Of a DNA stretch of 64,000 bases, positions 1,261-34,950 are shown in pieces. The translations under genes and the position numbers were made by a program. The notes under the pieces were generated by a model. The model made no database searches, was not told the origin of the DNA, and saw only the letters and a list, made by a program, of their open reading frames with translations. Each line of letters opens with the position of its first letter. The stretch's first letter is position 1. Source of the DNA: Pseudomonadota bacterium (lineage in GTDB: Bacteria > Pseudomonadota > Alphaproteobacteria > UBA2136 > JAPKEQ01); the NCBI GenBank assembly GCA_036141575.1, contig JAYZXF010000001.1, positions 62,001 to 126,000 of the forward strand, written 5' to 3'.

Positions 1261-4200
1261 TTGAATTTCAAGTGTATAGCTAAATACGTCTTATTGGGCG
1301 CCATGATTGGCCTATTTAACCCTGCCGAATCTTATGCACAATGTACCCGTACAAGTATTCCTGTTCATCCAGGAAACCCGTTCCCGAGCGCCGCTCAATT
1401 TGATTGTACAGATGATATACAAGGTGGCGTCAATTTTCCTTCTGGCTATACAGGCGGAGGCCTTACACCTCTTATGCCAGTCAATGCTCTGATTCCAGAT
1501 TCTCGTCTCAATGTTTTTAACTTAACAGAAAATATTAATCCTTCAGCTGGCAGAGTTGGTGTACGTGCTATTAACTTTACGTCTTTCCGTAATGATACGC
1601 GTGCCTTAGATGTTGCTCTGACACCGTCTTTATTCGGTGCTGGCAATACTATTGCTACACATGGTAATGGTGCGCATGGTATTGAGGTCGGTTCATGGGG
1701 GTCATACTTTTTAAACCTTGCCTATGAGCGCCAGAGTAGTGGCGGGGGAAATGCAAGCGGTCACGTCGTGCATACTTATACTAATGGTGGGCGTACATTT
1801 GATATTTCAACGAGCGGTACAGGTGCGCATGGTATCTATTCATACAGTGGTGGCGGGCATGGTCCTGGTGGTGATGATGACGCTTTTGGCGGCGGTGCAA
1901 GTGGTAGCCCTGGTGGTCGTGGTGGACAAATTTGGGTAGATAGCCGCTCTAATATTTATACATACGGCGCTCATTCACATGGTATTTACTCAGCAAGCCG
2001 TGGTGGTGATGGTGGTAATGGCGGTAATGGTGGCCTTGGCGGTAGCGGAGGCGCTGGCGGGCAAGGTGGCGCTGGCGGCTATGTCACAATTAGTAGTCGC
2101 GGTAATATTATTACGCACAACATTGGTTCGCACGGTATTATTGGCCAAAGTATTGGTGGTATCGGTGGGACTGGTGGTAATGGGTTGTTTTGGAATGGTG
2201 GTGGTAATGGTGGTGGTACCAGCCATGGTGGCACGGCTTATATTAATAATTATGGCTATATTGAAACCAAAGCAAACTTCTCATCAGCCATTGTAGGGCA
2301 AAGCATCGGTGGTTTTGGCGGCGGAGGAGGCGGCTCATTTGGTTTTATTGGCTACGGTGGGAGCGGAAACAGTGCAGGTAACGGTGGCACTGTCGTGATT
2401 AATAATAATGACGGTAATATGGTCACGCGTGGTTCTCATAGTCATGCTATCCTTGCACAAAGCATTGGCGGTGGCGGTGGCTCTGGCGGTGGCGGTTTTG
2501 GTGCTGTCGGTTTTGGTGGCGCTGGTAATGCCGGTGGTCATGGCGGTGGCGTTGGTGTTTATAACCGCAATAATACAGCACTCAACCTTTATACAATTAC
2601 ATATGGTTCTCGTTCTCACGGTATTTACGCCCAGTCTATTGGTGGTGGTGGCGGTGACGGTGGTGATTCTGGCGGCTTTAGTGCTGTTGGTGGCTCAGGT
2701 GCAGCAACCAGTAATGGTGGCACAGTGACTGTTGATAATGACCGTTACATTCAAACAAGTGGGCTTTTGTCTTCTGCTATTTTTGCACAAAGTATTGGTG
2801 GTGGTGGTGGTAATGGCGGTTCATCTGCTTCAGCATACATGGGCGTAGGTGGCTCCGGTGGTGGCGGTGGTCATGCCGGAACTGTGACTGTGAATAATGA
2901 TGCGACCCTCTTTACTGCAGGTAACCTGTCATCGGCTATTCTTGCTCAAAGTATCGGTGGTGGTGGTGGTCACGGCGGTAATGCCGTAGGTGCAAACTCA
3001 TTTACACTTAATGTTGGTGGCTCTGGCGGTGGCGGTGGCCACGGCGGTCATGTAAACCTATTTGATGGCGATACATTTGGTAATAACGCAGTCACTGTGC
3101 AAACATATGGAGACCGTTCACATGGCTTCCACGCCCAAAGTATTGGTGGTGGTGGCGGTAATGGTGGTTCAGCTGCTTCATTTGGTGCTGCACCTGTCGG
3201 CTCTTTTGCTTTTGCTATGGGCGGTTCTGGCGGCTCTGGTGGTCATGGTGGTAACGTGAATGTTCGGTCGCGATCTACACTCGAAATTTATGGAACAAAT
3301 TCGTCAGCAGTACTAGCTCAAAGTATAGGTGGTGGTGGTGGTAACGGCGGTTTTGCTGGTGCCTTTTCTGGTTCTTCTGGCTTTTCAGGTTCTGTGGCTC
3401 TTGGTGGGCGCGGTGGTATTGCTGGTCATGGTGGCACAGTGAGTTTAAATTCTTTTAGTCACGCGACAACACGTCAGGCAAACTCTTCTGGGGTTGTTGC
3501 CCAAAGTATTGGTGGTGGCGGTGGTAATGGGGGCTTTAGTTTGAGTGGTTCTTTCTCGACAAAAGCTTCTGGCTCTTTTTCAATGGGTGGTTCTGCTGGT
3601 GCGGGTGGAAACGCGAATAATGTGACCCTCAACAATTACGGTAATGTGACGACACATGGTGACAATAGCCATGCACTGATTTCACAAAGTATTGGTGGCG
3701 GTGGCGGTAATGGTGGTTTTGCCCTTGGGGCAAGCTTCTCTGGTGGATATAGCTTTACAGGTGCGGTTGGTGGCGCAGGTGGGGCCGGAGGTTATGCTGG
3801 CGTTGTCACAGCTTATAACAGCGGCGGATTACTGACACACGGCACAACAGCACATGGCGTGCTAGCGCAAAGTGTAGCTGGTGGTGGTGGTAATGGTGGT
3901 TTTGCTATTGGAGCAGCAGGGGCTGGAACAGGTGCCGCGACTCTAAGTGTTGGTGGAAATGGTGGTTCAGGGAACCATGCAAATCAAGTCCATGCAACAA
4001 ACCATGGAAGCATCACAACACGCGGTAATCGTTCAAACGGTCTTGTGGCACAAAGTGTTGGTGGCGGTGGCGGTAATGGAGGCTTTAGCGTGAGTGGTGC
4101 TGGAGCTGGTACGTATAGTGCAGGCATGTCTGTTGGTGGTGATGGTGCTTCTGGCGGTAATGGTGCACTGGTTGGTGTTACACATACAGGTTCTATTTAT

Positions 4201-7200
4201 ACACATGGCCATGACGCACACGGTATTGTAGCGCAGAGTATTGGTGGAGGCGGTGGTAATGGTGGCTTTAGTGTTAACGGTTCAGCATCATCAAAATTTG
4301 CAGGCAACCTAGGCCTTGGTGGATCAGGCTCCTCTGGTGGTAATGGTGGTCAAGTTATCGTGACAGCGAACTCAGGTCTTGTGCATACACAAGGTGATCG
4401 CTCTCTTGGCATGATTGCTCAAAGCGTTGGTGGAGGCGGTGGTAACGGCGCCTTTAATGCAAGTGCAGGCTTTAGTGTAGGAAATAGTGTTAACGCAGGT
4501 ATTGGTGGAAGTGGAGCTTCTGGTGGTATTGGTGCAAACGTGACACTTAACGCATTAAACAGTGATGTGAGAACTTCTGGTAAACACGCACACGGGCTAC
4601 TTGCTCAAAGTATTGGTGGTGGTGGCGGTAATGGTGGCTTTAACCTCGGTTTCTCTGGTGGTAAAGGTTATACAGGTACGCTTAGCCTTGGTGGTAATGG
4701 TGGTTCTGGTAAAAGTTCTGGAGTTGTCACAGTTAATCAATCAGGTTTCTTGAGGACGCAAGGACATGGTGCCATTGGGCTTGTCGCCCAAAGTGTTGGT
4801 GGTGGTGGCGGTAATGGAGCTTTCAGCCTTGCTGGTAATGTCGCAGGTTCTAGTGCTCTTAATGCCAGTATCGGTGGCGGTGGCGGTAGTGGAGGTAACT
4901 CCAATATTGTAAACCTTTCAGCTGGTGGCACAGTGATGACTGAAGGTCATGATGCTTATGGCTTGCTTGCACAAAGTATTGCTGGCGGTGGTGGTAATGG
5001 CGGCTTTGCACTTTCTGGGGCAGCAGCTATTAACGGACATAGTGTAAATGTTGCACTTGGCGGTGGCGGTGGAACAGGTGGTCATGCCGCAACAACAGCC
5101 CTTACATTCTCAGGCTCTCTTCAAACATCTGGTACATCCTCTCATGGTCTTTTGGCTCAAAGTATCGGTGGTGGTGGTGGTAATGCTGGTTTTGCTGGCA
5201 GCCTTGGTGGCACTCTTAGAAACGGAAGTGAGTTTGGTTTAACAGTAGGTGGCTCTGGAGGTTCTGGTGGACATAGTGGTGCTATTCAGGTGTCATCAGC
5301 AGGCACTGTGCTTACGAGAGGCTGGGGTGCTAACGCAATTATGGCGCAGAGCATTGGCGGCGGCGGTGGTAATGCTGGTTTTGGTTATAGCTTGGGCTTA
5401 ACACCAGGCTCTAATGGAAGTTCTGCACGTGTTACGCTTGGTGGAGCAGGAGGCTCTGGTGGGTACGGACAAGACGTAACCATTAATAATACGGCAAACC
5501 TGCGCACGCTTGCTAGATACAGTAACGGTATTTTGGCACAAAGCATTGGCGGTGGCGGTGGTAATGGCGGTAGCGTTATTGCTGGGAACCTTGCCTTTAG
5601 AAGTTCAGGTAAACAGTTTAATGTAGGCCTTGGTGGAAATGGTGGAACAGGTGGTATTGCCCGCGCTGTGAATATTACTAATACCGCTCAAATTTTAACT
5701 GAAGATGCTGACGCAATTGGTATTTTAGCGCAAAGCATTGGCGGTGGTGGTGGTAATGGCGGTATGTCTCTTAGCGCTGGAATGACAGGTTCAGGTTCTA
5801 ACCAGTTTGGCCTTACTCTTGGCGGATCAGGTGGATCTGGAGGTGCTGCTGGTGCAGTAAGTATTACACAGACTGGTCTTGTTGAGACAAGAGGTAACCG
5901 TTCTTATGGTATTCTCGCTCAAAGTATTGGTGGCGGTGGTGGTAACGGCGGTATTAGTGGTGCCGTTTCACTCGGTCAAGGCGGAAACAATAGTAATTAT
6001 AACGCTGTGATTGGTGGTTCTGGTGGAAGTGGTAATACGGCTTCTAATGTAGATCTTGTTTTAAGTGGTGGACTTATTACACGCGGTAATAGTGCACATG
6101 CAGTTTATGCCCAAAGCGTTGGTGGTGGCGGTGGTAATGGTGGTAGCAGCTTTGCTGCGACACGTACAAGTTCAGCTAGCGAGCCAAACCGTAATGTTGC
6201 TGTATCAGTAGCACTTGGTGGTTCTGGCGGTACAGGGAACCATGCTGGCAATATTACTGTCAATAATACGGACACAATTCAAACATTTGGTGCCGGTTCA
6301 TACGGTCTTTTGCTACAAGCCATTGGTGGCGGTGGTGGCTCTGGTGGGAACGCGAACGCCTTTACAATGGTTTCAAACTCATCTTCAAGCGCACGTGATG
6401 GCACGCAGAGTAAATCACGTGTGCTGAGTATTGGTGGTAGTGGTGGCGCGAGTGGTGATGGCGGTATCATTACAGTTGATAATTCTGGCACAATTGAAAC
6501 ATCTGGTGCGGATAGCCATGCCATTTTTGCACAAAGCATTGGTGGCGGTGGCGGTAACGGTGGTGACGCTGCTCATGCCAGACCAACTCTGGCTGCTATG
6601 ATTGATTTACCTGATGGGCCATCTTTTGCAGGGCTATCAGGATTTGGCTTTAACCCAACAGTGAGTACACCTGATCAGGAGCCCCAGCTGGCTATTGATA
6701 CGAAGGATTTATCCGTTACTGTTGGTGGCAGTGGTGGTGCAAGCGGACATGGTAAAGCGGTGACAATTCGTAACTCAGGCTCTGTTGTGACCCGCGGTGA
6801 TGGCGCTTTTGGCCTGCTTGTGCAAAGCATTGGTGGTGGCGGCGGTACTGGTGGCCTAAGCGAATCTGGTGAAACAGGTTCTGTAGGTGTCGGTGGTGCT
6901 GGCGGTAGCTCTGGCCATGGTGGTGATATTTCTATTACGAACAATGGAAGCATTGATACATTTGGTATTGCTGCACACGGTATGTTTGTGCAAAGCATTG
7001 GTGGCGGTGGAGGCCTTGCAGGCAATGTTGACCGCGGTGTAACAGATGATGGTACAACAGGCCTTGCTCTTGGACGCAGTGGCGGTGCTGGCGGTAATGG
7101 CGGCAATATTACAATTGATAGTTCAGGTCGCATCACAACCCGTGGCGATAGCGCATTTGGTATTTTTGCACAAAGTGTTGGTGGTGGTGGCGGTGTCGCA

Positions 7201-9228
7201 GGTAGCATCGGTAACGGACCAGGCTTTGCAGGATCAACAGGAGCTGTAGGGCAGGGTGGAGATATCCTTATTACACATACAGGTGACATTACAACACTGG
7301 GTGATAATGCACATGGTATCTATGCCCAATCTATGGATGGAGCGGGCGCGCCATCAGGTGAAGTGACGATTGATTACACAGGAACAATTTCTGTGCTTGG
7401 GCAAGGCTCTCACGCTATTGTGGCCAACACAAAGGATGGCTGTAGCATAGCGTGTGATATTGATATTTCTATAAGAGGTGGATCTATTGCAAGTGGTAAC
7501 GGTACAGACGCAGCGGTGCAGTTTACTGAAGGTAGAAATAATAACCTAACAAACCAAGGGGTGATCCAAAACGCTTCAGGCCTTACAGGGCTTTCTGTTG
7601 CAGGTACAGGCGGAGATGACGTAATTGAGAACCAAGGTACTCTTATTGGTAATATTGACCTTGGCACTGGCGCAAATAGGCTCAACAATACAGTAGGTAT
7701 TGTCTTTTCTGGTACGAACTTAAACCTTGGTGGTATAGCGCTGTCTCAAACTTTTAATAATGCAGGCATGTTAACAGTTGGTGATGTGGGGCTGCTGCAA
7801 ACCACAGTCTTAAATGGACATTTTAGCCAAGCTTCCGCAGGTACTATGAATGTAGACTTTGATAGCGGCACGCTTTCTAGTGACCTCATTCAAGCGACAG
7901 GTTCAGCAACAACAGATGGTACTCTTGTATTAAATGTTTTAAACCCTGAACAAATACGATCAGGAACACATGTGACATCATTAATTGAGGCGACAGGCGG
8001 GCTTGTTGATAGTGGTATTACACTGCAAGCGCCAAACACAGCTGTGGTTGGGTATAACCTCCTTGCAAATGGTCAAGACCTCTCTTTAGAGACGTCTGTT
8101 GATTTTACACCTGATGCCCCAACTGCAACAGGGAATCAGAGAGCGATTGGTGAATACTTTAATACAATTTTATCTAACCCTAACCCAGAGTTTCAGCAAG
8201 TGGTTGGCTTGATTGCAGGGATGCAAACAGGTGAAGAAGTTGCAGCCTTTATGGAGCAGCTTTCTCCAGAGCCACAAACAACAGCTAAGGCAACGAACAT
8301 TCTGTCTTCTGGTGTATTTAACCAAAGGCTGCGTAGTTGTCACCAACGTACAGGCGCTAACAAATTTGTCCGCGAAGGAGAGTGTGTATGGTATGCCCTT
8401 GGTGCCCGCTACACAGATAGAAACCTAACGGCTTCAGCACAAGGGTATAAGTCGCGCAGTCATGATATTGCTGCTGGTGCTCAGGTTGAAGTGAAGCCCG
8501 GTTTACACTTTGGTGCAGGTCTTTCTCTTGAAAAAGGTAGTTCTAAATCTGTTGGAGCGACAGCCTCTCAAGAGAGCACAGGTGTGCAAGTCGGTGGTAT
8601 TGTGAAGCGCGATATTGGCGATACCTTGATTACAGGTACGCTTGCTGCTGGTTATAATAAGCACGATGCTTTACGTGTGATTGATCTTGGCGGTGGGGGT
8701 ACTGTTAATGCTGAATCAGACTTTGATACGCACTTTGTATCTGTTGAAACAGATATTGCACATACGTTTGACCACGATAGTTGGTTTATTCGCCCAACGG
8801 TTGGAACGAATGTAACGTACTCTCATTCGTCTTCATTTAGTGAAAATGGGGCAGGTGTACTAGGCATTGATGCTGATTCAAACAGTGATGTGTCTGTAAA
8901 TGTACGTGCAGGATTTGATGTGGGTGGTGAAATTAAAACCAGCCGCTACTGTAACGATGAATGCGCAGTTGTTCGTCCGTATGCTAAAGTTGGTTATGTA
9001 CATTACCTGACAGATAGAAATACAACGCTGAACGCACGTTTTCAAGGGGCGCCAGCAGGTACTAAGTTTACAACAAGTACGCCAGTGTATGAGGACTACC
9101 TTGATATTAATGTAGGTGCTGAACTGTTAAATTCTGATGATACGGTTGTACGTATTGATTACGGTGCTCAAATTTCAGATAATGTGACGCAACAAAGCGC
9201 GCTGCTTAAAATAGCGATACCGTTTTAG
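1261..9228 (+). CDS. Giant glycine-rich repeat autotransporter (type Va secretion)
   Basis: A 2,655-residue secreted or surface protein. A Sec signal peptide is visible (positive start, hydrophobic stretch, cleavage expected after SYA near residue 26). The passenger, to about residue 2200, contains some 29 units of roughly 60-70 residues, each with a core like SHGILAQSIGGGGGNGG followed by a less conserved beta-rich segment, as expected of a long beta-helix-type fibre. A linker follows, and the last 280 or so residues form an autotransporter beta-barrel ending in an aromatic residue (IAIPF), as outer-membrane barrels do. The barrel region has two cysteine pairs that could form disulfides. There is no in-frame ATG upstream; the TTG at 1261 has a good ribosome-binding site. 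The role is probably adhesion or aggregation, by analogy only. Direct repeats on both sides suggest the gene was acquired or rearranged. Confidence 0.9.
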   Translation: MNFKCIAKYVLLGAMIGLFNPAESYAQCTRTSIPVHPGNPFPSAAQFDCTDDIQGGVNFPSGYTGGGLTPLMPVNALIPDSRLNVFNLTENINPSAGRVGVRAINFTSFRNDTRALDVALTPSLFGAGNTIATHGNGAHGIEVGSWGSYFLNLAYERQSSGGGNASGHVVHTYTNGGRTFDISTSGTGAHGIYSYSGGGHGPGGDDDAFGGGASGSPGGRGGQIWVDSRSNIYTYGAHSHGIYSASRGGDGGNGGNGGLGGSGGAGGQGGAGGYVTISSRGNIITHNIGSHGIIGQSIGGIGGTGGNGLFWNGGGNGGGTSHGGTAYINNYGYIETKANFSSAIVGQSIGGFGGGGGGSFGFIGYGGSGNSAGNGGTVVINNNDGNMVTRGSHSHAILAQSIGGGGGSGGGGFGAVGFGGAGNAGGHGGGVGVYNRNNTALNLYTITYGSRSHGIYAQSIGGGGGDGGDSGGFSAVGGSGAATSNGGTVTVDNDRYIQTSGLLSSAIFAQSIGGGGGNGGSSASAYMGVGGSGGGGGHAGTVTVNNDATLFTAGNLSSAILAQSIGGGGGHGGNAVGANSFTLNVGGSGGGGGHGGHVNLFDGDTFGNNAVTVQTYGDRSHGFHAQSIGGGGGNGGSAASFGAAPVGSFAFAMGGSGGSGGHGGNVNVRSRSTLEIYGTNSSAVLAQSIGGGGGNGGFAGAFSGSSGFSGSVALGGRGGIAGHGGTVSLNSFSHATTRQANSSGVVAQSIGGGGGNGGFSLSGSFSTKASGSFSMGGSAGAGGNANNVTLNNYGNVTTHGDNSHALISQSIGGGGGNGGFALGASFSGGYSFTGAVGGAGGAGGYAGVVTAYNSGGLLTHGTTAHGVLAQSVAGGGGNGGFAIGAAGAGTGAATLSVGGNGGSGNHANQVHATNHGSITTRGNRSNGLVAQSVGGGGGNGGFSVSGAGAGTYSAGMSVGGDGASGGNGALVGVTHTGSIYTHGHDAHGIVAQSIGGGGGNGGFSVNGSASSKFAGNLGLGGSGSSGGNGGQVIVTANSGLVHTQGDRSLGMIAQSVGGGGGNGAFNASAGFSVGNSVNAGIGGSGASGGIGANVTLNALNSDVRTSGKHAHGLLAQSIGGGGGNGGFNLGFSGGKGYTGTLSLGGNGGSGKSSGVVTVNQSGFLRTQGHGAIGLVAQSVGGGGGNGAFSLAGNVAGSSALNASIGGGGGSGGNSNIVNLSAGGTVMTEGHDAYGLLAQSIAGGGGNGGFALSGAAAINGHSVNVALGGGGGTGGHAATTALTFSGSLQTSGTSSHGLLAQSIGGGGGNAGFAGSLGGTLRNGSEFGLTVGGSGGSGGHSGAIQVSSAGTVLTRGWGANAIMAQSIGGGGGNAGFGYSLGLTPGSNGSSARVTLGGAGGSGGYGQDVTINNTANLRTLARYSNGILAQSIGGGGGNGGSVIAGNLAFRSSGKQFNVGLGGNGGTGGIARAVNITNTAQILTEDADAIGILAQSIGGGGGNGGMSLSAGMTGSGSNQFGLTLGGSGGSGGAAGAVSITQTGLVETRGNRSYGILAQSIGGGGGNGGISGAVSLGQGGNNSNYNAVIGGSGGSGNTASNVDLVLSGGLITRGNSAHAVYAQSVGGGGGNGGSSFAATRTSSASEPNRNVAVSVALGGSGGTGNHAGNITVNNTDTIQTFGAGSYGLLLQAIGGGGGSGGNANAFTMVSNSSSSARDGTQSKSRVLSIGGSGGASGDGGIITVDNSGTIETSGADSHAIFAQSIGGGGGNGGDAAHARPTLAAMIDLPDGPSFAGLSGFGFNPTVSTPDQEPQLAIDTKDLSVTVGGSGGASGHGKAVTIRNSGSVVTRGDGAFGLLVQSIGGGGGTGGLSESGETGSVGVGGAGGSSGHGGDISITNNGSIDTFGIAAHGMFVQSIGGGGGLAGNVDRGVTDDGTTGLALGRSGGAGGNGGNITIDSSGRITTRGDSAFGIFAQSVGGGGGVAGSIGNGPGFAGSTGAVGQGGDILITHTGDITTLGDNAHGIYAQSMDGAGAPSGEVTIDYTGTISVLGQGSHAIVANTKDGCSIACDIDISIRGGSIASGNGTDAAVQFTEGRNNNLTNQGVIQNASGLTGLSVAGTGGDDVIENQGTLIGNIDLGTGANRLNNTVGIVFSGTNLNLGGIALSQTFNNAGMLTVGDVGLLQTTVLNGHFSQASAGTMNVDFDSGTLSSDLIQATGSATTDGTLVLNVLNPEQIRSGTHVTSLIEATGGLVDSGITLQAPNTAVVGYNLLANGQDLSLETSVDFTPDAPTATGNQRAIGEYFNTILSNPNPEFQQVVGLIAGMQTGEEVAAFMEQLSPEPQTTAKATNILSSGVFNQRLRSCHQRTGANKFVREGECVWYALGARYTDRNLTASAQGYKSRSHDIAAGAQVEVKPGLHFGAGLSLEKGSSKSVGATASQESTGVQVGGIVKRDIGDTLITGTLAAGYNKHDALRVIDLGGGGTVNAESDFDTHFVSVETDIAHTFDHDSWFIRPTVGTNVTYSHSSSFSENGAGVLGIDADSNSDVSVNVRAGFDVGGEIKTSRYCNDECAVVRPYAKVGYVHYLTDRNTTLNARFQGAPAGTKFTTSTPVYEDYLDINVGAELLNSDDTVVRIDYGAQISDNVTQQSALLKIAIPF
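2130..7345 (+). repeat. Tandem coding repeat array (about 29 glycine-rich units)
   Basis: Inside the autotransporter gene, the DNA encoding AQSIGGGGGNGG recurs about every 180-220 bp. The core is well kept at the protein level while glycine codons alternate between GGT and GGC, which points to selection on the protein and age rather than a very recent DNA expansion. The last units (near 7300) lose the glycine run (QSMDGAG), as terminal repeats often do. Such arrays can expand or shrink by recombination and may be misassembled from short reads. Confidence 0.9.
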
Positions 9229-9461: not shown

Positions 9462-9566
9462 TCATATGAAGATTTGAGTATATTAAAAACGCCCGTGTTT
9501 GCGGGGATGGGACGGCAAAAACAAAAAAACACCCATAAGGGTGTTGAATCTGTTTGAAAATGGTGG
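9453..9566. repeat. Direct repeat, right copy (114 bp), joined to the tRNA-Ala 3' end
   Basis: Partner of 854-967 (about 94% identical). One end is the CCACCA terminus of tRNA-Ala; the other abuts the DUF2726 fragment. The copy includes the terminator of the tRNA operon, so this is probably the native copy and 854-967 the duplicate. The arrangement resembles a tRNA-associated attachment site, but only six bases of the tRNA are shared. Confidence 0.9.
9522..9545 (-). terminator. Terminator of the tRNA-Ile/tRNA-Ala operon
   Basis: On the minus strand AACACCC-TTAT-GGGTGTT is followed by a run of seven T residues, 16 nucleotides past the tRNA-Ala 3' end. The same hairpin is present in the left repeat copy at about 924-946. 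Confidence 0.85.
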
Positions 9567-9636
9567 AGCCTAGCGGGATCGAACCGCTGACCTCCTGCGT
9601 GCAAAGCAGGCGCTCTCCCAGCTGAGCTAAGGCCCC
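9561..9636 (-). tRNA. tRNA-Ala (anticodon TGC)
   Basis: The minus strand folds as a 76-nt cloverleaf: acceptor GGGGCCT pairing with AGGCTCC, D-arm AGCTCAGCTGGGAGAGC, anticodon stem CCTGC/GCAGG with loop TTTGCAC, T-arm GGTTCGATCC, and an encoded CCA. It lies 24 bp after tRNA-Ile. This pair normally sits between 16S and 23S rRNA genes, but neither rRNA is nearby. Confidence 0.97.
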
Positions 9637-9660
9637 ATATTCTATTTTCGTATTAAACGA

Positions 9661-9737
9661 TGGTGGGCTCAGGAAGACTTGAACTTCCGACCCCTGCGTT
9701 ATCAACACAGTGCTCTAACCAACTGAGCTATGAGCCC
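9661..9737 (-). tRNA. tRNA-Ile (anticodon GAT)
   Basis: A 77-nt cloverleaf on the minus strand: acceptor GGGCTCA/TGAGCCC, D-arm AGCTCAGTTGGTTAGAGC, anticodon loop TTGATAA within CTGTG/CGCAG, T-arm with GTTCAAGTC, and an encoded CCA. It is the first gene of a two-tRNA operon. Confidence 0.97.
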
Positions 9738-24099: not shown

Positions 24100-24369
24100 A
24101 TGAAAAACTCTAAGAAACTTATGACAGCAGCAGCTCTAACAGCATTCGTAGCAGGTTCAGGCGCTATGATTGAGGATGCGCACGCAGGTAAGCCTGGTTA
24201 CGAAAAGTGTATGGGCGTTGTTAAAGCAGGTATGAACGACTGTGGTGCGAACGGTCACAGCTGTGCTGGTCAAGCTAAAGTAGATAACGATCCGAACGAG
24301 TGGGTGTACCTACCAGAAGGTACTTGCGACAAGCTTGCTGGCGGCGTTGTAAAAATGATGAAAAAATAA
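24100..24369 (+). CDS. bufA1: Bufferin precursor BufA1 (DUF2282)
   Basis: An 89-residue secreted peptide precursor: Sec signal peptide with cleavage expected after AHA (residue 29), then a core with four cysteines at 37, 48, 55 and 76 in the contexts KCMG, DCGAN, SCAG and GTCDK. DUF2282 proteins of this form are bufferins, in which a DUF692 enzyme with its DUF2063 partner converts cysteines to thio-heterocycles so that the product binds copper in the periplasm. The maturation genes follow directly. Expression is expected from the ECF promoter at 23966. A weak hairpin after the stop may keep its transcript level above that of the enzymes. Confidence 0.88.
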
Positions 24370-24370
24370 T

Positions 24371-24395
24371 CTAAATTAAAATTTAGTTTTATTTT
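24371..24395 (+). promoter_or_regulatory. Hairpin with U-tract between bufA1 and bufB
   Basis: CTAAAT-TAAA-ATTTAG followed by TTTTATTTT, immediately after the bufA1 stop. The stem is short and A+T-rich, so it could be a leaky terminator or an RNA 3'-end stabiliser that gives more precursor than enzyme. Function is inferred. Confidence 0.4.
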
Positions 24396-24419
24396 ATGCG
24401 AACCAAGAAAGCTCCTGCT

Positions 24420-25280
24420 ATGAACGAACGTCTTAATAAATCCGGGGTCGGACTTAGACATCCTCACATGCAGGAGCTTCTGCTTGGTCAATCATCTGTT
24501 GGCTTTCTTGAAGCGCACAGCGAAAACTACTTCGGTGGTGGCCTTGCAAGAGAGCAAATCAATGAAATTTCTAAACTGTACCCTGTTACATTGCATGGGG
24601 TAGGGCTTTCACTAGGCCGCGCGGACGGCCTTGATAAGCAACATTTGAAACAGCTGAAAGCGCTGGTAGAAGAAGTAAACCCCGTGTTTGTGTCTGAGCA
24701 TCTTACGTGGAGTGGCTACAGCCATACCCATGTGCCAGACCTTTTGCCTTTACCGTTTACAAATGAGGCGCTTGATACGTTTGTGGATCACGTAAAAGAA
24801 TTCCAAGACACACTTGGTAGACAAATTTTGGTGGAAAACCCATCTAACTACCTTGCTTTTAAAGATTTAGATTTTACAGAGACAGAATTCCTTAACCTTG
24901 TGGCAGAACGCTCAGGCTGTGGACTTCTTCTTGATATTAATAACATTGCTGTAAGTGCACAAAACCTTGGGTATAACCCTGAGGATTACGTCGATGAAAT
25001 TACAAATAGTGGTGCGGTCAAGCAGTTCCACCTAGCAGGTTATGAAGTACGTGACCTAGAAGATGGGGCACAGCTTTACCTCGATACACATGGTCACCCT
25101 GTGTATCCAGAGGTCTGGGAACTTTACAAACGTGCGTTGAGACGCTTTGGTGATATCCCAACGCTTATTGAGTGGGATATGGATATTCCTGCGCTGAGTG
25201 TATTAGAAGAAGAAGCTGCAAGAGCTGACGTTGTACGTACTGAAGTGAAAGAGGAGGCAAACCATGCCGTCGCTGTCTAA
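24420..25280 (+). CDS. bufB1: BufB, multinuclear non-heme iron oxidase (DUF692/MNIO)
   Basis: About 286 residues with the TIM-barrel pattern of MNIO enzymes: GVGLRHPHMQELL at the start, EAHSENYFGGG, LHGVGLSLG, SEHLTWSG, LVENPSNYL, LLLDINNIAVSA, FHLAGYE, DTHGHPVYPEVWELYK and IEWDMDIP. These His/Glu/Asp/Asn positions hold two or three iron ions that use oxygen to modify cysteines in the bufferin precursor. ATG at 24420 is chosen over 24396 because it leaves the usual short N-terminus and has a purine-rich stretch upstream. bufC overlaps its 3' end by 17 bp. Confidence 0.9.
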   Translation: MNERLNKSGVGLRHPHMQELLLGQSSVGFLEAHSENYFGGGLAREQINEISKLYPVTLHGVGLSLGRADGLDKQHLKQLKALVEEVNPVFVSEHLTWSGYSHTHVPDLLPLPFTNEALDTFVDHVKEFQDTLGRQILVENPSNYLAFKDLDFTETEFLNLVAERSGCGLLLDINNIAVSAQNLGYNPEDYVDEITNSGAVKQFHLAGYEVRDLEDGAQLYLDTHGHPVYPEVWELYKRALRRFGDIPTLIEWDMDIPALSVLEEEAARADVVRTEVKEEANHAVAV

Positions 25281-26037
25281 GCTTCAAGAAACACTCCTCA
25301 ATGATATTTATACAGGCAGTTCAGATAGCCTTGAGTATCTGGATGCGCGTGTGCCTGATGTAGAAGGCCGTTTGAATATCTATAAAAATAATACGCGCCT
25401 TAACCTAATTGATACATTGAAAAATGTTTACCCTGTGACCCTTCAGTTGGTTGGTGAAGAATTCTTTAAAACGATGGCGCGCCACTATGTGAAACAGGTG
25501 CCAATGGAAGTTGGAAATCGCAACGCCTATGGCTCTGAGTTTAGCGATTTTATTAACGGGTTTGCAGAAGCAAAATCTCTTCCGTATTTGAGCGATATGG
25601 CGAGACTAGAATATGCCTACTTTAAGGTTGGGGTGACAGAAGAAAAAGAGACACTCACACAAGAGGGTTTACAAGCAGCTCTCGGAGAGTTTGGAGATGT
25701 GAATTTTGAGTTAAACAGCAATGCAAGTCATGTTGATTTAACTTTTAATGTGGATGGTCTTTGGCATTTACATCAATCTGATAGTGCGGATTTTTCAAGT
25801 TTTGAATTAATTGAAAGTTCTCGCCCTGTTCTTGTTCTAAGAGACGCCTCTCACATGACATGGATGAAAGTTTTAAGTGCTGAGACAGCTGCATTTTTAG
25901 CAGATGTTTCACTTGGAAAATCCTTTGCAGAATCTATGCAAATACAAATGGAAAAAGAAGCGAATTTAGAAGCGCTTCAAATGGATTTTGGTTACCTGTT
26001 AAGTCAGGGCGCTTTTACCCCTTTAAATGGAGAATGA
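25264..26037 (+). CDS. bufC1: BufC, DUF2063 partner protein
   Basis: 257 residues. The N-terminal half is the DUF2063 region (LNIYKNNTRLNLIDTLKNVY, then VTLQLVGEEFFKTMARHYVK, then RLEYAYF). The family binds the peptide precursor and presents it to the DUF692 oxidase. It is cytoplasmic and has no signal peptide. AGGAGG lies before the ATG, inside the end of bufB, so the two are coupled. Confidence 0.88.
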   Translation: MPSLSKLQETLLNDIYTGSSDSLEYLDARVPDVEGRLNIYKNNTRLNLIDTLKNVYPVTLQLVGEEFFKTMARHYVKQVPMEVGNRNAYGSEFSDFINGFAEAKSLPYLSDMARLEYAYFKVGVTEEKETLTQEGLQAALGEFGDVNFELNSNASHVDLTFNVDGLWHLHQSDSADFSSFELIESSRPVLVLRDASHMTWMKVLSAETAAFLADVSLGKSFAESMQIQMEKEANLEALQMDFGYLLSQGAFTPLNGE

Positions 26038-26041
26038 AAAC

Positions 26042-26470
26042 ATGATATCTACAGCTAAAACAACTCTGCGTATGCTTATGGCAGATGTAAACTTTGTTCA
26101 GTCGGTTGCCCTGCTTGCAGCACGTATCTGGATTGCGAAGGTCTTCTTCTACTCAGGCCTCACTAAAATTAAAACATGGGACAGTACACTGACATTGTTT
26201 GAGTATGAATATGCTGTACCTGTGCTCCCAACAGAAGTGGCAGCATACATGGCGACTGCAGGAGAACTTATTTTGCCAGTTCTTCTTGTGTTTGGTTTGT
26301 TTACACCTATCGCAGCTCTGGGCCTATTTATTATGACGCTTGTGATTGAGTTCCTTGTGTACCCAGGAACAACAGAGCATTACTACTGGATGCTTTTGCT
26401 TGGTATTCTTATGACACATGGTTCTGGCAAGCTTGGCCTTGACCACTTTATTAAGAAGAAATTCCTCTAG
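26042..26470 (+). CDS. DoxX-family membrane protein of the buf operon
   Basis: About 142 residues with four membrane helices and the DoxX features RIWIAKVFFYSGLTK at the start and GKLGLDHF at the end. DoxX proteins are commonly the last gene of bufferin operons; a role in redox or membrane handling of the product is likely but not shown. ATG at 26042 has GGAG before it; the ATG at 26027 lies inside the end of bufC. A strong terminator follows. Confidence 0.85.
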   Translation: MISTAKTTLRMLMADVNFVQSVALLAARIWIAKVFFYSGLTKIKTWDSTLTLFEYEYAVPVLPTEVAAYMATAGELILPVLLVFGLFTPIAALGLFIMTLVIEFLVYPGTTEHYYWMLLLGILMTHGSGKLGLDHFIKKKFL

Positions 26471-29063: not shown

Positions 29064-29437
29064 TGGGATATCTCCTTATATGAGGCATGGTTTGAGTGTG
29101 TGCCTAGGCACGGTGAATCCCTCATACAAAGTACACTTTATATGAGAGATGAAAGATAAAAAAGACCCCTGATGTGTGGGATCCTTTATCAAACGGTTTT
29201 AGATGTCTCTAAATAATAGGGGACTTATAGCATGTGACTGAGTTGTATGCAATATAAAAGGGCTAGAAATAAACGACATTTTATGTTTGTCAGATTTTAA
29301 CTTTATGGTACATTTATATGCAACACGTTCTAACTGAGTTCCCCTGTTGCAAATTGATGGAAAGCCACGCTCAATACGGGCTCATTTAACGTTTTGTGCT
29401 GTTAAAAAGGTGCAAACAACAAGGAGGCTGAAACGCC
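29064..29437. other. Intergenic region between the divergent NAD-salvage and PhyH operons
   Basis: 374 bp without a convincing gene. It is A+T-rich in its middle. An imperfect hairpin lies at about 29157-29190 (GACCCC against GGGATC with an A-run on the left) and could act as a leader or attenuator in the minus direction. AAGGAGG at about 29420 is the ribosome-binding site of the PhyH gene. Open frames here lack start signals and protein-like composition. Confidence 0.5.
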
Positions 29438-30550
29438 GTGATTATAGACCAGTCCGTAAGGGAGTTGGTGTGGGAGATAGAGTCCTCTCCGCCAGATATA
29501 AACCAAAAAATCATTCAACTGATACAGACTCTTCACAACAACCTTCAAACCCACTCCCACACTCTCACACATCTACCTACACAACAGACAGCTTACACAC
29601 AGTATCCTCTAGATGAGGACGGCTTTGCTGTAGCGTTTGACCCGTTAAAGGATGAGGAGGGCTTTATGGCTGCCTTTAGAGAGCATGGTCTTGTTGTGGG
29701 TAAGGGCGTGATCTCGAGTGAGCTGTGCAAGAAAGCAGTTCATAGAATTCAGGACGTAGCTTCTCTTATCAGTAATGGGCAATTTGATTTCTCAAACCCT
29801 GAGAGTTGGCACGGTATGCCCGAGGATGAACATGGTACGCCACTCCTGAGCAGAGGATTCTTTGAACTTTACCATGATGGGGTCTGGGCTGAGATCAGGC
29901 AGAGTATCAGGCTTTATATTCATCACGTACTGCTGTGGGGTAGGGTTGATTTATGGAGTAGTTTTGACAGGTTTGGTGTAAAGCTCCCGAATGAAGATGG
30001 CAAGGCGCTTGGTCTGCATGTGGATCAAAACCCAACGGTTCACCCTGAATTTAGAACATTGCAGGGCATTCTGGCGCTTGCAGATAACCCCAAAGAGCAG
30101 GGCACATTTAGAGCTGTACCAGGATCAAGAAAGGACTTTCATGGGTACATTCCGTTTGTGAAGAATAAAGGGGAGTATGTAGCGCTGGAAGAGGGGAGTG
30201 AACTCTCTGAAAAGCTGAATTCTTACCAACAAGCTTTTCCACTCAGAGCAGGTGACATTGTGACATGGGATAGTAGAACAACTCATGCCAACACATCGAA
30301 TTTGTCTGATTCTACGAGGTACGTGGCCATGGTGGCGATGGGGCCTGCACCTGAGAACTTTTCTGAAATGTCTGCAGTCAGGCAGGAAGCCTTTGAAAGT
30401 GGCCTTGGGAGTAACGTGAGAGATGCGCTCATGCATGCCAGTATGAAACCAAGATTCACAAATAGTTCCGTTATGAACGCAGTGAGACAACCAGAACACT
30501 TAAACCAATTGGGAGCGTACCTTTATGGCTTTGAACCTTACGAACTGTAG
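29438..30550 (+). CDS. PhyH-like Fe(II)/2-oxoglutarate dioxygenase
   Basis: 370 residues. The double-stranded beta-helix iron site is visible: His194 and Asp196 in GLHVDQNP, the distal His283 in TTHANTS, and Arg294 (STRYVAM) as the 2-oxoglutarate anchor; WDSRTTHAN is typical of the phytanoyl-CoA dioxygenase family. It should hydroxylate a small molecule or a sugar-linked product; the substrate is unknown. The N-terminal 70 or so residues are extra and threonine/histidine-rich (it contains HNNLQTHSHTLTHLPTQQT). GTG start, with AAGGAGG ten bases upstream. It is the first gene of a coupled four-gene operon. Confidence 0.85.
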   Translation: MIIDQSVRELVWEIESSPPDINQKIIQLIQTLHNNLQTHSHTLTHLPTQQTAYTQYPLDEDGFAVAFDPLKDEEGFMAAFREHGLVVGKGVISSELCKKAVHRIQDVASLISNGQFDFSNPESWHGMPEDEHGTPLLSRGFFELYHDGVWAEIRQSIRLYIHHVLLWGRVDLWSSFDRFGVKLPNEDGKALGLHVDQNPTVHPEFRTLQGILALADNPKEQGTFRAVPGSRKDFHGYIPFVKNKGEYVALEEGSELSEKLNSYQQAFPLRAGDIVTWDSRTTHANTSNLSDSTRYVAMVAMGPAPENFSEMSAVRQEAFESGLGSNVRDALMHASMKPRFTNSSVMNAVRQPEHLNQLGAYLYGFEPYEL

Positions 30551-31631
30551 ACTCTTATTAAATGCTGAGTCTTTTGGGTTTGGTCCAACAGCAGCCATTG
30601 CGAGCTTCTTTCCTCTCCTTAAAGGGCAAGTAGAGCGCATCAGTTATATAGGAGACGGGCATAGCTTAGACCTACAAAAGCCTCTGGATTATGACGCTAT
30701 TTATGATTCCAGCAATATGAGAAACACGGCTTTGGAGGGCATCTTAAAACAGTATGATGTGTTTTTGACAGCGACTGACTTTATAATGGCTGAGAAAGCA
30801 AAGGCCGCAGGCTTAAGAGTGATTATCTATGATCCACTCACATGGTTTTGGAAGGATATGCCAAATGCTGTAAAGGGTTGTGATTTATACCTCTCTCAAG
30901 ATTTTATTGGCGTGGGCAAACTACTTAAAGGGTATAGAGAGAAGATGAAAGGCGAAGCTGTTGCCGTGCCACCGATTCTTCAATCTAAAATGCCAGAAAG
31001 AGAAGGGCAGCATGTTCTTTTGAACTTTGGTGGGCTCATGAATCCATTTTGGAGCGAGGGAGATGCGATTGCTTATGCGGAGGCGATGTATAAAGCTGTT
31101 GTTGATGCTTTACCTGAAGGGGAAGAATTGATTGTGTGCGCGAGTGAAAAGGTTGCTGAGGCTCTACCACATATACATGCTCAGAGTTATCCAAGGGAAG
31201 AGATGCTGAAGATTCTTGAGGGGAGTAAGTATGCCTTCATGACCTCCGGACTTGGGAATATCTATGATGCGGCGCAGTTTGATTTGCCAACAGTTTGGCT
31301 TCCGCCAACCAATGATAGCCAAGGGCAGCAGTTAGACATGATTGCGTCGGAAGGGTATGTGGACATCGCTCTCACATGGCATGATTTGCTGGGTATACCT
31401 GAGCTTGATTATAGGCAAGAGCAAGCTAAGGTGATTGCAGATATTGTGAACTGTGTTGGCAAGCTTCCTTCTGTGAATTTAAATTTTAATCACGCCTTAA
31501 AGCAGGTCTCGGCTCAGGATTCTAGCCGTGCAAAAGGCTTGATTGATGTGTACGGTACATCTGGTGATGAAGCTGTTGCCTCAGTTGTTCTTGGCTTTAT
31601 TGAGAAAGGAGGACAGGTATGTTCAGCTTAA
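30525..31631 (+). CDS. GT-B fold glycosyltransferase-like protein
   Basis: 368 residues. A GT-B pattern is suggested by GFGPTAAIASFFPLL near the start (acceptor-side loop), LLNFGGLMNPFW at the start of the second domain, and the donor-side GLGNIYDAAQFDLPTVWLPP segment near the C-terminus, comparable to MurG/GT28 proteins. No exact family is recognised. The gene begins 26 bp inside the PhyH gene with GGGAG before the ATG. Together with the GT-B gene two positions downstream, it suggests stepwise sugar transfer in one pathway. Confidence 0.65.
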   Translation: MALNLTNCRLLLNAESFGFGPTAAIASFFPLLKGQVERISYIGDGHSLDLQKPLDYDAIYDSSNMRNTALEGILKQYDVFLTATDFIMAEKAKAAGLRVIIYDPLTWFWKDMPNAVKGCDLYLSQDFIGVGKLLKGYREKMKGEAVAVPPILQSKMPEREGQHVLLNFGGLMNPFWSEGDAIAYAEAMYKAVVDALPEGEELIVCASEKVAEALPHIHAQSYPREEMLKILEGSKYAFMTSGLGNIYDAAQFDLPTVWLPPTNDSQGQQLDMIASEGYVDIALTWHDLLGIPELDYRQEQAKVIADIVNCVGKLPSVNLNFNHALKQVSAQDSSRAKGLIDVYGTSGDEAVASVVLGFIEKGGQVCSA

Positions 31632-32437
31632 ACTCTCATCATAGTCCTGATTCTCTTCTTTTAGATGCTTATAGGCCAGCGCTTCTTGGGCAGGATATGA
31701 ACCTTTTTACCTTAACCATTAAGCATAACCCCAAAACATCTCTCGCGAGGTATCAAAGCCATGCTGTACTGAGTGCACCATGTAAAGATGAGTTTCCGGT
31801 AGATGCTTACCATTTATTAGGTGGAATGGTGAGAGAGGCTTTACTTAAGCAGGGCATTTATAGTGTGCATAGCACATGTGTTGACGGCCATTTGATTGTC
31901 GCGCATTCGGGTGGAGGGAAGAGTTCTGTGTTGTTGGAGTGCGTTGAGCAAGGAATGAAAGAAGTCATCTCGGGTAATAAGACTCTGGTTACGTTTATGG
32001 ATGGGAAGATGCAAGCTGTTGGTGGCACTGCTTCTATGACAATAGGAGAGCAGGTCTTTCATGAACAGGTTCAGGCACCCGTTTCTGACAAAAAGGTGTA
32101 TGGAGATAGAGTTGCGTTCAGGATTTCAGAAGATAGATACGCAAGTCACCCTCAAAACATTCATGCTGTTTGGGTGGTAAAACTGACAAATGAGGACGTT
32201 GTTTGTCAGGAGTTGTCAAAAATGAGTGTCTTACATAGGCTCTTTCCATTCTTTATGGATACGGTGAATGCCTCGGTGATTCTTGGAGAAGGGGAAGTAT
32301 TGTTTCAGCCAGAAGATCAAAAGGCAGAAGAGGGGTTGCCTGCACTGTTAAAACAGGTTTTGGATCATGTTCAGGTGTTTGAAGTATCAGGGACAAGGCA
32401 AGAGATTGCAAAGTTGATAAAGGAGAAAACATCATGA
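31619..32437 (+). CDS. HPr kinase-like P-loop protein
   Basis: 272 residues. A Walker A motif AHSGGGKSS with Lys101 follows TCVDGHLIVA, the layout of HprK/P-related kinases, which phosphorylate hydroxyl groups. HprK-related proteins outside the PTS occur in several biosynthetic clusters. No HPr or PTS gene is near, so its target is probably a product or protein of this operon. It is coupled on both sides: 13 bp overlap with the upstream gene (AAAGGAGGA before ATG) and ATGA overlap with the next. Confidence 0.6.
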   Translation: MFSLNSHHSPDSLLLDAYRPALLGQDMNLFTLTIKHNPKTSLARYQSHAVLSAPCKDEFPVDAYHLLGGMVREALLKQGIYSVHSTCVDGHLIVAHSGGGKSSVLLECVEQGMKEVISGNKTLVTFMDGKMQAVGGTASMTIGEQVFHEQVQAPVSDKKVYGDRVAFRISEDRYASHPQNIHAVWVVKLTNEDVVCQELSKMSVLHRLFPFFMDTVNASVILGEGEVLFQPEDQKAEEGLPALLKQVLDHVQVFEVSGTRQEIAKLIKEKTS

Positions 32438-33465
32438 AGAAGATTCTCTACGGGATTTGCGGTATTGGGTTGGGCCATATGTATCGCCAATTGCCAATTC
32501 TTGAAGCTTTAAAAGGACAGGCTAAAATTGCTATTTTTGCCTACGGAGAGAGCTTGAAGTTCTGTGAGGAGCATTTTGCTGAGGACGCGTATATTCAAGT
32601 GATTCCTGTGGCCGTACCCTTTATTGTGGGTGATTCAACTGGGTTAAACTTTGCTAAGAGCTTGTCACATGAAGCCAATCAACAGAACTTTTGGGAAATC
32701 AATACGGCTGCAATGGCGCAGGCGCAGGCCTTTATCGGAGAACCTGATGTGGTTTTAACAGACTATGAACCTGTGAGCGCTCAATATGCTTATATGTATG
32801 ACGTGCCGCTTTATACGATGGACCAGCAAAGTAAGTACTTAGTTGGTGACTATCCAGAGAAGCTTGGAGATGTATCTCTTATTGATGAAGTTCAAAGGCT
32901 GCGTATGTTTTTCCCAAAAGCTCACAAAAGAGTGGTGTTTTCATTCTTTGATGTGAATGTGAAGATCCAATACGCAGGTGAAGTGCAAGTGGTAAGGCCG
33001 ATATTAAGGCAAGAGCTGCAAGGTTTAAAAAGGAAAGTGAAAAGAGGTTCATACTTAATTTACCTGTCTGCACAAGGTGGGCATAGCCAGAGTTTAAGTG
33101 AGATTCAGGAAATCTGTGCGGCTTTCCCTGAATCTGAGTTCCATATCTTTGATGGTAAAAATGCGAGTGATGAGGCCTTTATTGAAGCGTTAAGAACCTG
33201 TGAGGGCGTTATCAGTACCGCAGGACACTCGCTTATGAGTGAGTCAGCCACCCTAGGTATTCCTGTTTATGCTATGCCTTTGAATATCTATGAGCAGCAA
33301 ATGAATGCTGTTGAAATTGAGAAAGCGGGGCAGGGAATAAATAGGTCTACGTTTACGCAGAAAGGTTTTGAAGCATTTCAATCATTCTGTGAAGCGTTCG
33401 CGCCTAAACCTCTCGGTGATGTGTTTAATATAGAAGAGCTCATCTCTGAAATTTTGAGCCATTAA
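32434..33465 (+). CDS. GT-B glycosyltransferase (MJ1255-like family)
   Basis: 343 residues. The N-terminal YGICGIGLGHMYRQLPILEA is the glycine-rich acceptor loop of GT1/GT28-type enzymes (compare GxGxGHxxR in the MJ1255-like group), and ISTAGHSLMSESATLGIPVY near 255-275 is the nucleotide-sugar site. It is the last gene of the four-gene operon, joined to the kinase-like gene by ATGA, with AAAGGAG upstream and a terminator just after the stop. It is more canonical than the first GT-B protein of the operon. Confidence 0.75.
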   Translation: MKKILYGICGIGLGHMYRQLPILEALKGQAKIAIFAYGESLKFCEEHFAEDAYIQVIPVAVPFIVGDSTGLNFAKSLSHEANQQNFWEINTAAMAQAQAFIGEPDVVLTDYEPVSAQYAYMYDVPLYTMDQQSKYLVGDYPEKLGDVSLIDEVQRLRMFFPKAHKRVVFSFFDVNVKIQYAGEVQVVRPILRQELQGLKRKVKRGSYLIYLSAQGGHSQSLSEIQEICAAFPESEFHIFDGKNASDEAFIEALRTCEGVISTAGHSLMSESATLGIPVYAMPLNIYEQQMNAVEIEKAGQGINRSTFTQKGFEAFQSFCEAFAPKPLGDVFNIEELISEILSH

Positions 33466-33489
33466 AAAAGGCTCCCGAAGGAGCCTTTT
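33466..33489 (+). terminator. Bidirectional terminator after the PhyH/GT operon
   Basis: AAAAGGCTCC-CGAA-GGAGCCTTTT with a stable tetraloop. It sits one base after the GT stop codon and one base before the converging YeeE gene end, so it serves both. Confidence 0.9.
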
Positions 33490-33490
33490 G

Positions 33491-34048
33491 CTATCTGAGT
33501 GATTTAGGGACTGCGATAGCAATGCCAATAAAGGCAAGGCCAAGAAGAATACCAAGTAAGGTTCCATCCATGGCAATCAGATGCTCATACTTACTGCTTG
33601 TTTCAGCAAGGCTGACTTTACCGCCTGCAATTTTATCAAATAAAGAGGTGTTCGCTTTAAGCCATTCATACATGAGCGTGAAGGCGAAAGCGCCTGCAAA
33701 TCCACCCAGTACAAAGAAGAGTGCATCTTTGCGCCCTGTTGCAAGGGCTGCAAGGCCTGTGCCTGGACAGTAACCAGCAATGGCAAAGCCAATACCAAGT
33801 AAAGCGCCACCAATGACAACGCCAAGGTAGGCTGCTTTAATAGAAATGTGCCCTGCATCGATAAAACCAAGTTTAAGACCACTAAATAAAGCAACGGAAG
33901 CAAGGCCGATAGCAAATAAAATGGCTTTCATGAGGCGCAAATCTGTAAAGCGTAGCATGTTAATAATATTTTCTGGGTTTGTGGCTCCAACACGGTTAAG
34001 GGCAAAACCAAACAGCGTACCAAGAGCAATAGCAAGATAAAGTTCCAT
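33491..34048 (-). CDS. YeeE/YedE-family transporter, half-size subunit (second of the pair)
   Basis: 185 residues with about five helices and the family signature AGYCPGTGLAALATG, whose cysteine is part of the sulfur path in YeeE/YedE (TsuA-type) transporters. Half-size members work in pairs, and the partner is encoded 22 bp upstream. The upstream repressor is of the persulfide-sensing type, so import or export of a sulfur species (thiosulfate, sulfide or persulfide) is the expected job. Confidence 0.85.
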   Translation of the reverse strand: MELYLAIALGTLFGFALNRVGATNPENIINMLRFTDLRLMKAILFAIGLASVALFSGLKLGFIDAGHISIKAAYLGVVIGGALLGIGFAIAGYCPGTGLAALATGRKDALFFVLGGFAGAFAFTLMYEWLKANTSLFDKIAGGKVSLAETSSKYEHLIAMDGTLLGILLGLAFIGIAIAVPKSLR

Positions 34049-34070
34049 AGTTTAATTCCTTTCTTGAGCC

Positions 34071-34649
34071 TTAGCGTTTTTTATACAAAATCATGGCAAG
34101 CGGGATAGATGTTGCAAAGAGCCCTAATGCAAATAAGTAGCCGCTGAGAGATGTTTGCATCATACCGCTCATCATATGGCCACTTGTGCAACCGCCTGCG
34201 AGCCTTGCGCCAAAAAGAACGATAAAGCCAGCAATAAAGGCCCATACATAGCGCTTTGTTGGGTTGGTGCCAAAATTATCAGACCAAGCTTTAGGCATTT
34301 CTGATTCTTGTTTAGATGCAGGCTTATCACCTGAAAGCTTACTTGCTAGAAAAGCACCAAACATCATCGCGAGTACAAACACAAAGCTATAGTTAAGTGG
34401 GTTGGCTGCATTTTTGGCATATTTACCGCCACTCTTATTTAGGTAAGCATTTTCTGAACCGTAACCTGTTTTACTATCTACACCTTCTTGAATAATTTCA
34501 GGGTTGATCATGTCCCAAACAATGGCATCAGCAATAACAAACTGGGTGGATACGCCAATTGGCTTCACAAATAATACCGCACTAAAGAAAGCCATCGCAA
34601 GGAGTGCGCCTCCTATAGCCCAGGGCAAAACGCTTTTACATTTACACAT
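34071..34649 (-). CDS. YeeE/YedE-family transporter, half-size subunit (first of the pair)
   Basis: About 192 residues: a short cytoplasmic start with two cysteines (MCKCKSVLPW), helices with FFSAVLFVKPIGVSTQF, and the signature AGGCTSGHMMSG. The frame is open to 34814, but the ATG at 34649 has AAGGAGAA before it and gives the normal N-terminus; the longer version would lie within arsR. It overlaps the arsR stop by eight bases, so repressor and transporter are coupled. Confidence 0.85.
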   Translation of the reverse strand: MCKCKSVLPWAIGGALLAMAFFSAVLFVKPIGVSTQFVIADAIVWDMINPEIIQEGVDSKTGYGSENAYLNKSGGKYAKNAANPLNYSFVFVLAMMFGAFLASKLSGDKPASKQESEMPKAWSDNFGTNPTKRYVWAFIAGFIVLFGARLAGGCTSGHMMSGMMQTSLSGYLFALGLFATSIPLAMILYKKR

Positions 34650-34950
34650 TAGAGTTCTCCTTATTTTGACAAAATTCTTGATAGAGCAGGGCCATAATAT
34701 CCTGCGTGAGTTTGGATGAAATACTGTAATAGAGGGTGCGATGCTCCCTTCTGTAGCTGACAATACCTTCTTCTCTAAGCTTGGCAAGGTGCTGAGATGT
34801 TGAGCTTTGTGCAAGCCCTGTTGCTTCTATAAGTTCAGTGACGCTTTTTTCACCCTCTGCCATGGTGCAAAGGAGAAGAAGCCTATGAGGGCTTGCAATA
34901 CCTTTTAAGTATTTTGAGACCATATCCGCTTTATTGTTCATGTCATCCAT
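34642..34950 (-). CDS. ArsR-family repressor of the SqrR/BigR persulfide-sensor type
   Basis: 102 residues: winged helix with SVTELIEATGLAQSSTSQHL as the recognition region. Cys28 (LLLLCTMAEGE) and Cys94 (YQEFCQNK) are 66 residues apart, the same spacing as the two cysteines of SqrR/BigR that form a tetrasulfide bridge with reactive sulfur. The metal motif ELCVCDL of true ArsR is absent. The two transporter genes downstream belong to a sulfur family, in agreement. It probably represses its own operon at the A+T-rich palindrome just upstream. Confidence 0.85.
   Translation of the reverse strand: MDDMNNKADMVSKYLKGIASPHRLLLLCTMAEGEKSVTELIEATGLAQSSTSQHLAKLREEGIVSYRREHRTLYYSISSKLTQDIMALLYQEFCQNKENSNV

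Follow-up and report, generated by a model that had tools for sequence, protein, structure and literature searches.

A transferable four-gene cassette of a dioxygenase, two glycosyltransferases and an HprK-like protein in alphaproteobacteria

Organization of the operon

Four overlapping genes on the forward strand, at positions 29438 to 33465 of the window (the whole stretch of 64,000 nucleotides analyzed here), raise two questions: whether they act as a unit and, if so, what they make. The initial annotation read them as an operon of a PhyH dioxygenase, a GT-B protein, an HprK-like kinase and a second GT-B protein, and their starts and overlaps are present as it gave them. Gene 1 (29438..30550; 370 aa, GTG start) encodes a PhyH-type Fe(II)/2-oxoglutarate dioxygenase, gene 2 (30525..31631; 368 aa) a GT-B glycosyltransferase that we assign by sequence to a sister family of cytosylglucuronate (CGA) synthase, gene 3 (31619..32437; 272 aa) an HprK-like P-loop protein in which Walker A is kept and an Asp pair is replaced by GNK, and gene 4 (32434..33465; 343 aa) a glycosyltransferase of the MJ1255/VC2487 type (PF13528). 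Overlaps of 26 bp (genes 1/2), 13 bp (genes 2/3) and 4 bp (genes 3/4) make it probable that the four are translationally coupled. The GTG start lies ten bases 3' of a Shine-Dalgarno sequence, AAGGAGG (29421..29427, forward strand), and this start context is also kept in a congener, the metagenome-assembled genome (MAG) ANT-120.

The proposed terminator was found directly after the gene 4 stop as a hairpin with a 10-bp stem and a 4-base loop (33466..33489, forward strand; −15.9 kcal/mol, z = −3.2). Runs of A and T flank it on either side, so that it could terminate transcription from both strands and serve both convergent genes; it is missing from the pattern-scan list of terminators, probably because the T run forms part of the stem. 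On the reverse strand, two half-size Sulf_transp (YeeE/YedE) genes and an ArsR-like regulator (33491-34950) converge with the operon and have this hairpin in common with it; this block is kept in the congener as well. An Rfam scan gave no element within or upstream of the operon. Family scans of the window neighbors bore out the claim that no PTS, capsule or lipopolysaccharide gene adjoins it. The four-gene set itself includes no precursor peptide gene, no base-releasing hydrolase, no sugar-nucleotide gene and no exporter or resistance gene.

Conservation of the set in other genomes

A search for co-conserved homologues found all four genes together in two other genomes, so that the co-occurrence on which the initial annotation had staked its proposal holds. 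In ANT-120 (loci L003/L004/L011) they have the same order and the same neighbors as in the window, while in the MAG RI_95 (loci L012/L024), which the grouping used in genome sampling places in another alphaproteobacterial order, the same genes in the same order have wholly different flanks (two sampled entries, G196 and G398, appear to be this one genome, judged by position). The overlaps of genes 1/2 (exactly 26 bp) and of genes 3/4 (4 bp) are identical in all three operons, and that of genes 2/3 is 4 bp in ANT-120 and RI_95 versus 13 bp in the window. Amino acid identities to the window copies in ANT-120 and RI_95 were, respectively, 76% and 62% for gene 1, 71% and 53% for gene 2, 62% and 39% for gene 3, and 70% and 54% for gene 4.

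The dN/dS ratios between the window and ANT-120 were 0.08, 0.15 and 0.10 for genes 1, 2 and 4, rough values given that dS was high throughout; dS of gene 3 was saturated, and the range of 0.08 to 0.15 covers the genes with a measurable dS. The operon genes are thus under purifying selection. Two further genomes have the genes in this order and with the same joins; this, together with the low dN/dS ratios, means that the set is not a chance grouping, and the earlier view that the genes act together is well supported by their co-conservation in another order amid unrelated flanks. Divergent NAPRT and nicotinamidase-like genes upstream had been considered as operon partners and were dropped, being absent beside the RI_95 operon.

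A transferable cassette

In the window genus, the context consists of housekeeping genes, and the GC content of the cassette (0.445) matches its surroundings (0.449). In RI_95, the cassette has a GC content of 0.600 versus 0.42 to 0.48 in the neighboring segments and 0.55 before the tmRNA gene (ssrA). A 20-nt sequence at the 3' end of this ssrA gene has an exact second copy 10.05 kb downstream (L024 2490-2509 and 12544-12563), and these are its only two sites in the RI_95 genome, allowing three mismatches. The interval between them holds two tyrosine integrase genes and one for a type IIG restriction enzyme, and the pair of repeats probably marks an ssrA-integrated island. Another 0.75 kb separates the second repeat from the start of the cassette, which has a phage Mu F-like gene on its far side; the cassette therefore adjoins the repeat-bounded element and is not inside it. 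A second, tandem element is plausible, but the contig ends 1.7 kb past the cassette. Both RI_95 and ANT-120 are MAGs, in which an assembly chimera is possible, yet the window arrangement was found independently in two genomes. Taken together, the agreement of three genomes from two orders in gene order and joins, the unrelated flanks in RI_95 and its GC and ssrA-repeat setting show that the four genes behave as a portable cassette, inherited or transferred together.

The cassette is rare, being found in 2 of the ca. 380 alphaproteobacteria sampled. Close relatives of gene 1 (E ≤ 1e-25) were found in 2 of 376 sampled alphaproteobacteria, counting the window genome. For gene 2 the count was 3 among 385, with one of the three weak, and for gene 3 it was 2 among 398 genomes sampled across the phylum, one of these being an HprK-related kinase B. 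In the stretches read, the rest of the set was absent both around a weak gene 2-like match in genome G326 and around a gene 3-like match in G519, the latter an HprK-B protein above the cut-off of that model. A pattern-based scan of 84,980 GTDB genomes, which overlooks diverged copies, gave the operon only in ANT-120 and RI_95, along with Streptomyces genomes carrying gene 2 alone. The other operons were recovered by an alignment-based scan of GTDB contigs, and a pattern scan with the single gene 2 sequence gave none. No description of the four-gene operon was found in the literature searched, which also yielded nothing usable on the gene combination, on the function of DUF1479/Gig2 or on the GAK system. 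As far as tested, then, the composition is an undescribed one, with genes 2 and 3 above no family cut-off.

The proximity of the RI_95 cassette to integrases and a type IIG restriction enzyme could suggest a trait of mobile islands, such as defense or counter-defense, in which a protein, peptide or nucleic acid is modified; HprK-like kinases in known clusters phosphorylate lasso peptides. We consider this decidedly unlikely. The set has no precursor peptide, its surroundings in the window genus are housekeeping genes, PADLOC and PHROG gave no notable match for the cassette proteins (marginal PADLOC matches of genes 1 and 3 were taken as chance), and no relatives appeared in IMG/VR scans or, for genes 1 and 2, in phage records.

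The dioxygenase

Gene 1 matched the Pfam families PhyH (2.9e-11, above the cut-off) and Gig2-like (1.4e-6). The iron ligands named in the initial annotation, an HxD...H set with a 2-oxoglutarate-binding Arg (H194, D196, H283 and R294), are intact and invariant in the three operon copies, as is Walker A K101 of gene 3. Gene 1 is better conserved than any other member of the set, and this extends to its C-terminal LGSNVRDALMHAS segment. It has the iron ligands and core motif in common with PhyH-type small-molecule dioxygenases (SnoK, ectoine hydroxylase) and with the Gig2-like family, and weakly matches SnoK (3.6e-5) and Gig2 (0.045), but unlike all of these it has long N- and C-terminal segments that are conserved within the cassette. 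No close characterized relative was found.

Gene 2 belongs to a sister family of CGA synthase

Gene 2 passes no Pfam model, and its match to TIGR04467 (4e-8, 32.8 bits) is below the curated cut-off of 300 bits. All eight gene 2 homologues nevertheless matched this model (best, 3e-17), and hhalign of the gene 2 family with an annotated CGA synthase gave 98.4% over 273 columns, nearly the whole GT-B length. CGA synthase (BlsD/MilC, TIGR04467) is the pyrimidine N-glycosyltransferase of the blasticidin and mildiomycin clusters, which moves glucuronic acid from UDP-GlcA onto cytosine; gene 2 is ca. 23% identical to it, and the motifs FG.G, D.L...W, VPPI, N.GGL..PF and LPP.N.SQ are common to both. 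From these comparisons, we place gene 2 in a sister family of CGA synthase, far under the cut-off of that family. The AlphaFold2 model (pLDDT, 88.6) has a GT-B fold, and the solved structures nearest to it are YjiC-type UDP-glycosyltransferases, the calicheamicin enzyme CalG2, PseG and MurG. The GT-B label given earlier was thus correct as to fold, while the label alone missed the kinship with CGA synthase, which offers a concrete lead as to the chemistry.

Of the partners of CGA synthase, the radical-SAM decarboxylase BlsE and an aminotransferase are found beside gene 2 in none of the three copies, and no CMP hydrolase adjoins it either. Conversely, the annotated CGA synthase on a plasmid of Streptomyces sp. 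NBC_00467 has adjacent genes annotated as blsE and blsF, and its Rhodococcus relative lies beside a nucleoside 2-deoxyribosyltransferase and deoxysugar genes. The nearest relatives of gene 2 outside the operon (ca. 36% identical) are orphan Streptomyces genes annotated as hypothetical and located beside a divergent alpha/beta hydrolase gene (L006 12001-13128, L007 11815-13011 and L010 4881-6023; also L014, L015 and L016), with no nucleoside-antibiotic genes next to them. These homologues appear, by sequence, to be a branch of orphans within the CGA-synthase superfamily. Judged by homology to CGA synthase, the acceptor of gene 2 is perhaps a heterocycle. The cassette would carry this superfamily into proteobacteria outside nucleoside-antibiotic clusters.

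The second glycosyltransferase

Gene 4 passed PF13528 (2e-32, 113 bits against a cut-off of 25 bits) and matched the profile of the MJ1255/VC2487 family over its full length, yet under the TIGR00661 cut-off (4.7e-30, 104.9 bits versus 195.9). Unlike that family, it is coupled to the cassette, and it is not detectably a duplicate of gene 2. Since MJ1255- and MurG-like GT-B enzymes often have lipid-linked acceptors and the gene 2 fold lies close to that of MurG, the cassette might decorate a surface glycan or lipid, with the two GT-B enzymes extending a lipid-linked sugar and the dioxygenase hydroxylating the lipid or the sugar. We regard this as rather unlikely, given that both flank contexts lack a neighboring capsule, lipopolysaccharide or flippase gene, that the set has no precursor gene and that the sequence of gene 2 resembles CGA synthase and not MurG.

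The HprK-like protein

Gene 3 passes no library family model. Its profile covered the His strand, the P-loop and the next strand of HPr kinase structures with an E value of 0.24, which is below significance alone, and hhalign with HprK-related kinase B gave 95%. Walker A (K101) and the preceding His (H84) are intact, as in HPr kinase, and on these grounds we take gene 3 to be an HprK homologue. An AlphaFold model built from three sequences (pLDDT, 43) was too low for use. Past the P-loop, where HprK relatives have a [D/N]D motif, each of the three operon copies has (G/T)NK instead (GNK at residues 119 to 121 in the window): the site reads ADD, SND or TND in HprK-like proteins elsewhere and SGN or ATN, followed by KT, in the operon. 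In Mycoplasma pneumoniae HPrK/P, the conserved Asp177 and Asp178 are located at the ligand pocket (PMC11204831). The GN/TN positions of gene 3 would, in our reading, correspond to this pair.

The window genome, 97.7% complete, gave no match to HPr (PF00381) or to the HprK C-domain (PF07475), a genome-wide absence that rests on family searches. Given the replaced Asp pair and this absence, we infer that gene 3 is not a PTS regulator and maybe not a conventional kinase; of the earlier label, HprK homology and Walker A stand, while kinase activity is doubtful. That gene 3 acts as an ordinary HprK-fold kinase on Ser/Thr or small molecules and phosphorylates the product, as first proposed, would fit the intact Walker A and the conserved H84 before the P-loop, but it appears unlikely with (G/T)N followed by K at the Asp-pair site in every operon copy, even if another acidic residue might still make it an active kinase.

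HprK-related kinase B (TIGR04355) of the GAK system has a homologous P-loop region, the conserved His and GGGKS as in gene 3, but ND where gene 3 has GN/TN; its model was matched by only one of three gene 3 members (E = 0.04), and the ATP-grasp and amphi-Trp genes of the GAK system are absent beside gene 3. At one locus with an HprK-B gene (L022), nearby ORFs are, on reading, what we take to be ATP-grasp-like and amphi-Trp-like.

A proposed function

The reading that we propose, with about an even chance of being right, is that the four genes form one transferable cassette for biosynthesis or tailoring: a small, perhaps heterocyclic, acceptor would be hydroxylated and would receive two sugars, and gene 3 would be a pseudokinase or an atypical phosphotransferase. 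By family, gene 1 would hydroxylate the substrate or an intermediate with Fe(II) and 2-oxoglutarate, gene 2 would use a nucleotide sugar, probably a UDP-sugar, to glycosylate the small acceptor (the leading guess for the acceptor atom being a ring nitrogen, as in CGA synthase), and gene 4 would attach a second sugar. Gene 3 would hold a nucleotide at its P-loop. With its Asp pair lost and no HPr found in the genome, it could be a pseudokinase with a regulatory or scaffold role, or else a phosphotransferase whose chemistry has changed and which acts on the product of the pathway. The set brings neither an exporter nor a resistance gene, and for this reason the product probably stays inside the cell or is otherwise retained. 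The product initially suggested was a phosphorylated, hydroxylated glycoside; a hydroxylated glycoside is a fair deduction from the domains, while phosphorylation, weakened by (G/T)NK in every copy, is doubtful and the least secure step of that proposal.

A more specific and improbable version would be an undescribed minimal nucleoside-like pathway outside actinomycetes, carried on a transferable cassette, in which an N-glycoside made by the CGA-synthase relative receives a second sugar and a hydroxyl group and the HprK-fold enzyme with GNK in its active site performs or senses phosphorylation. The four-gene set is self-contained and small enough to be expressed whole in Escherichia coli with a metabolomics readout, and the conserved loss of the Asp pair in gene 3 offers a direct test of other HprK-fold chemistry or of nucleotide sensing.

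Other features of the window

Elsewhere in the window, a 2,655-aa glycine-rich protein with many SIGGGGGNGG-type repeats and an autotransporter-like C terminus is encoded at 1261-9228 on the forward strand. Genes for tRNA-Ala(TGC) and tRNA-Ile(GAT) lie side by side on the reverse strand (9561-9737), an arrangement different from the usual 16S-23S spacer in that Rfam detected no rRNA gene anywhere in the window. At 24100-26470, a small signal-peptide protein and DUF692-like, DUF2063-like and DoxX-like membrane proteins, identified by reading, follow one another in a row that resembles a bufferin-type (MbnB/MbnC-like) metal-binding peptide operon.
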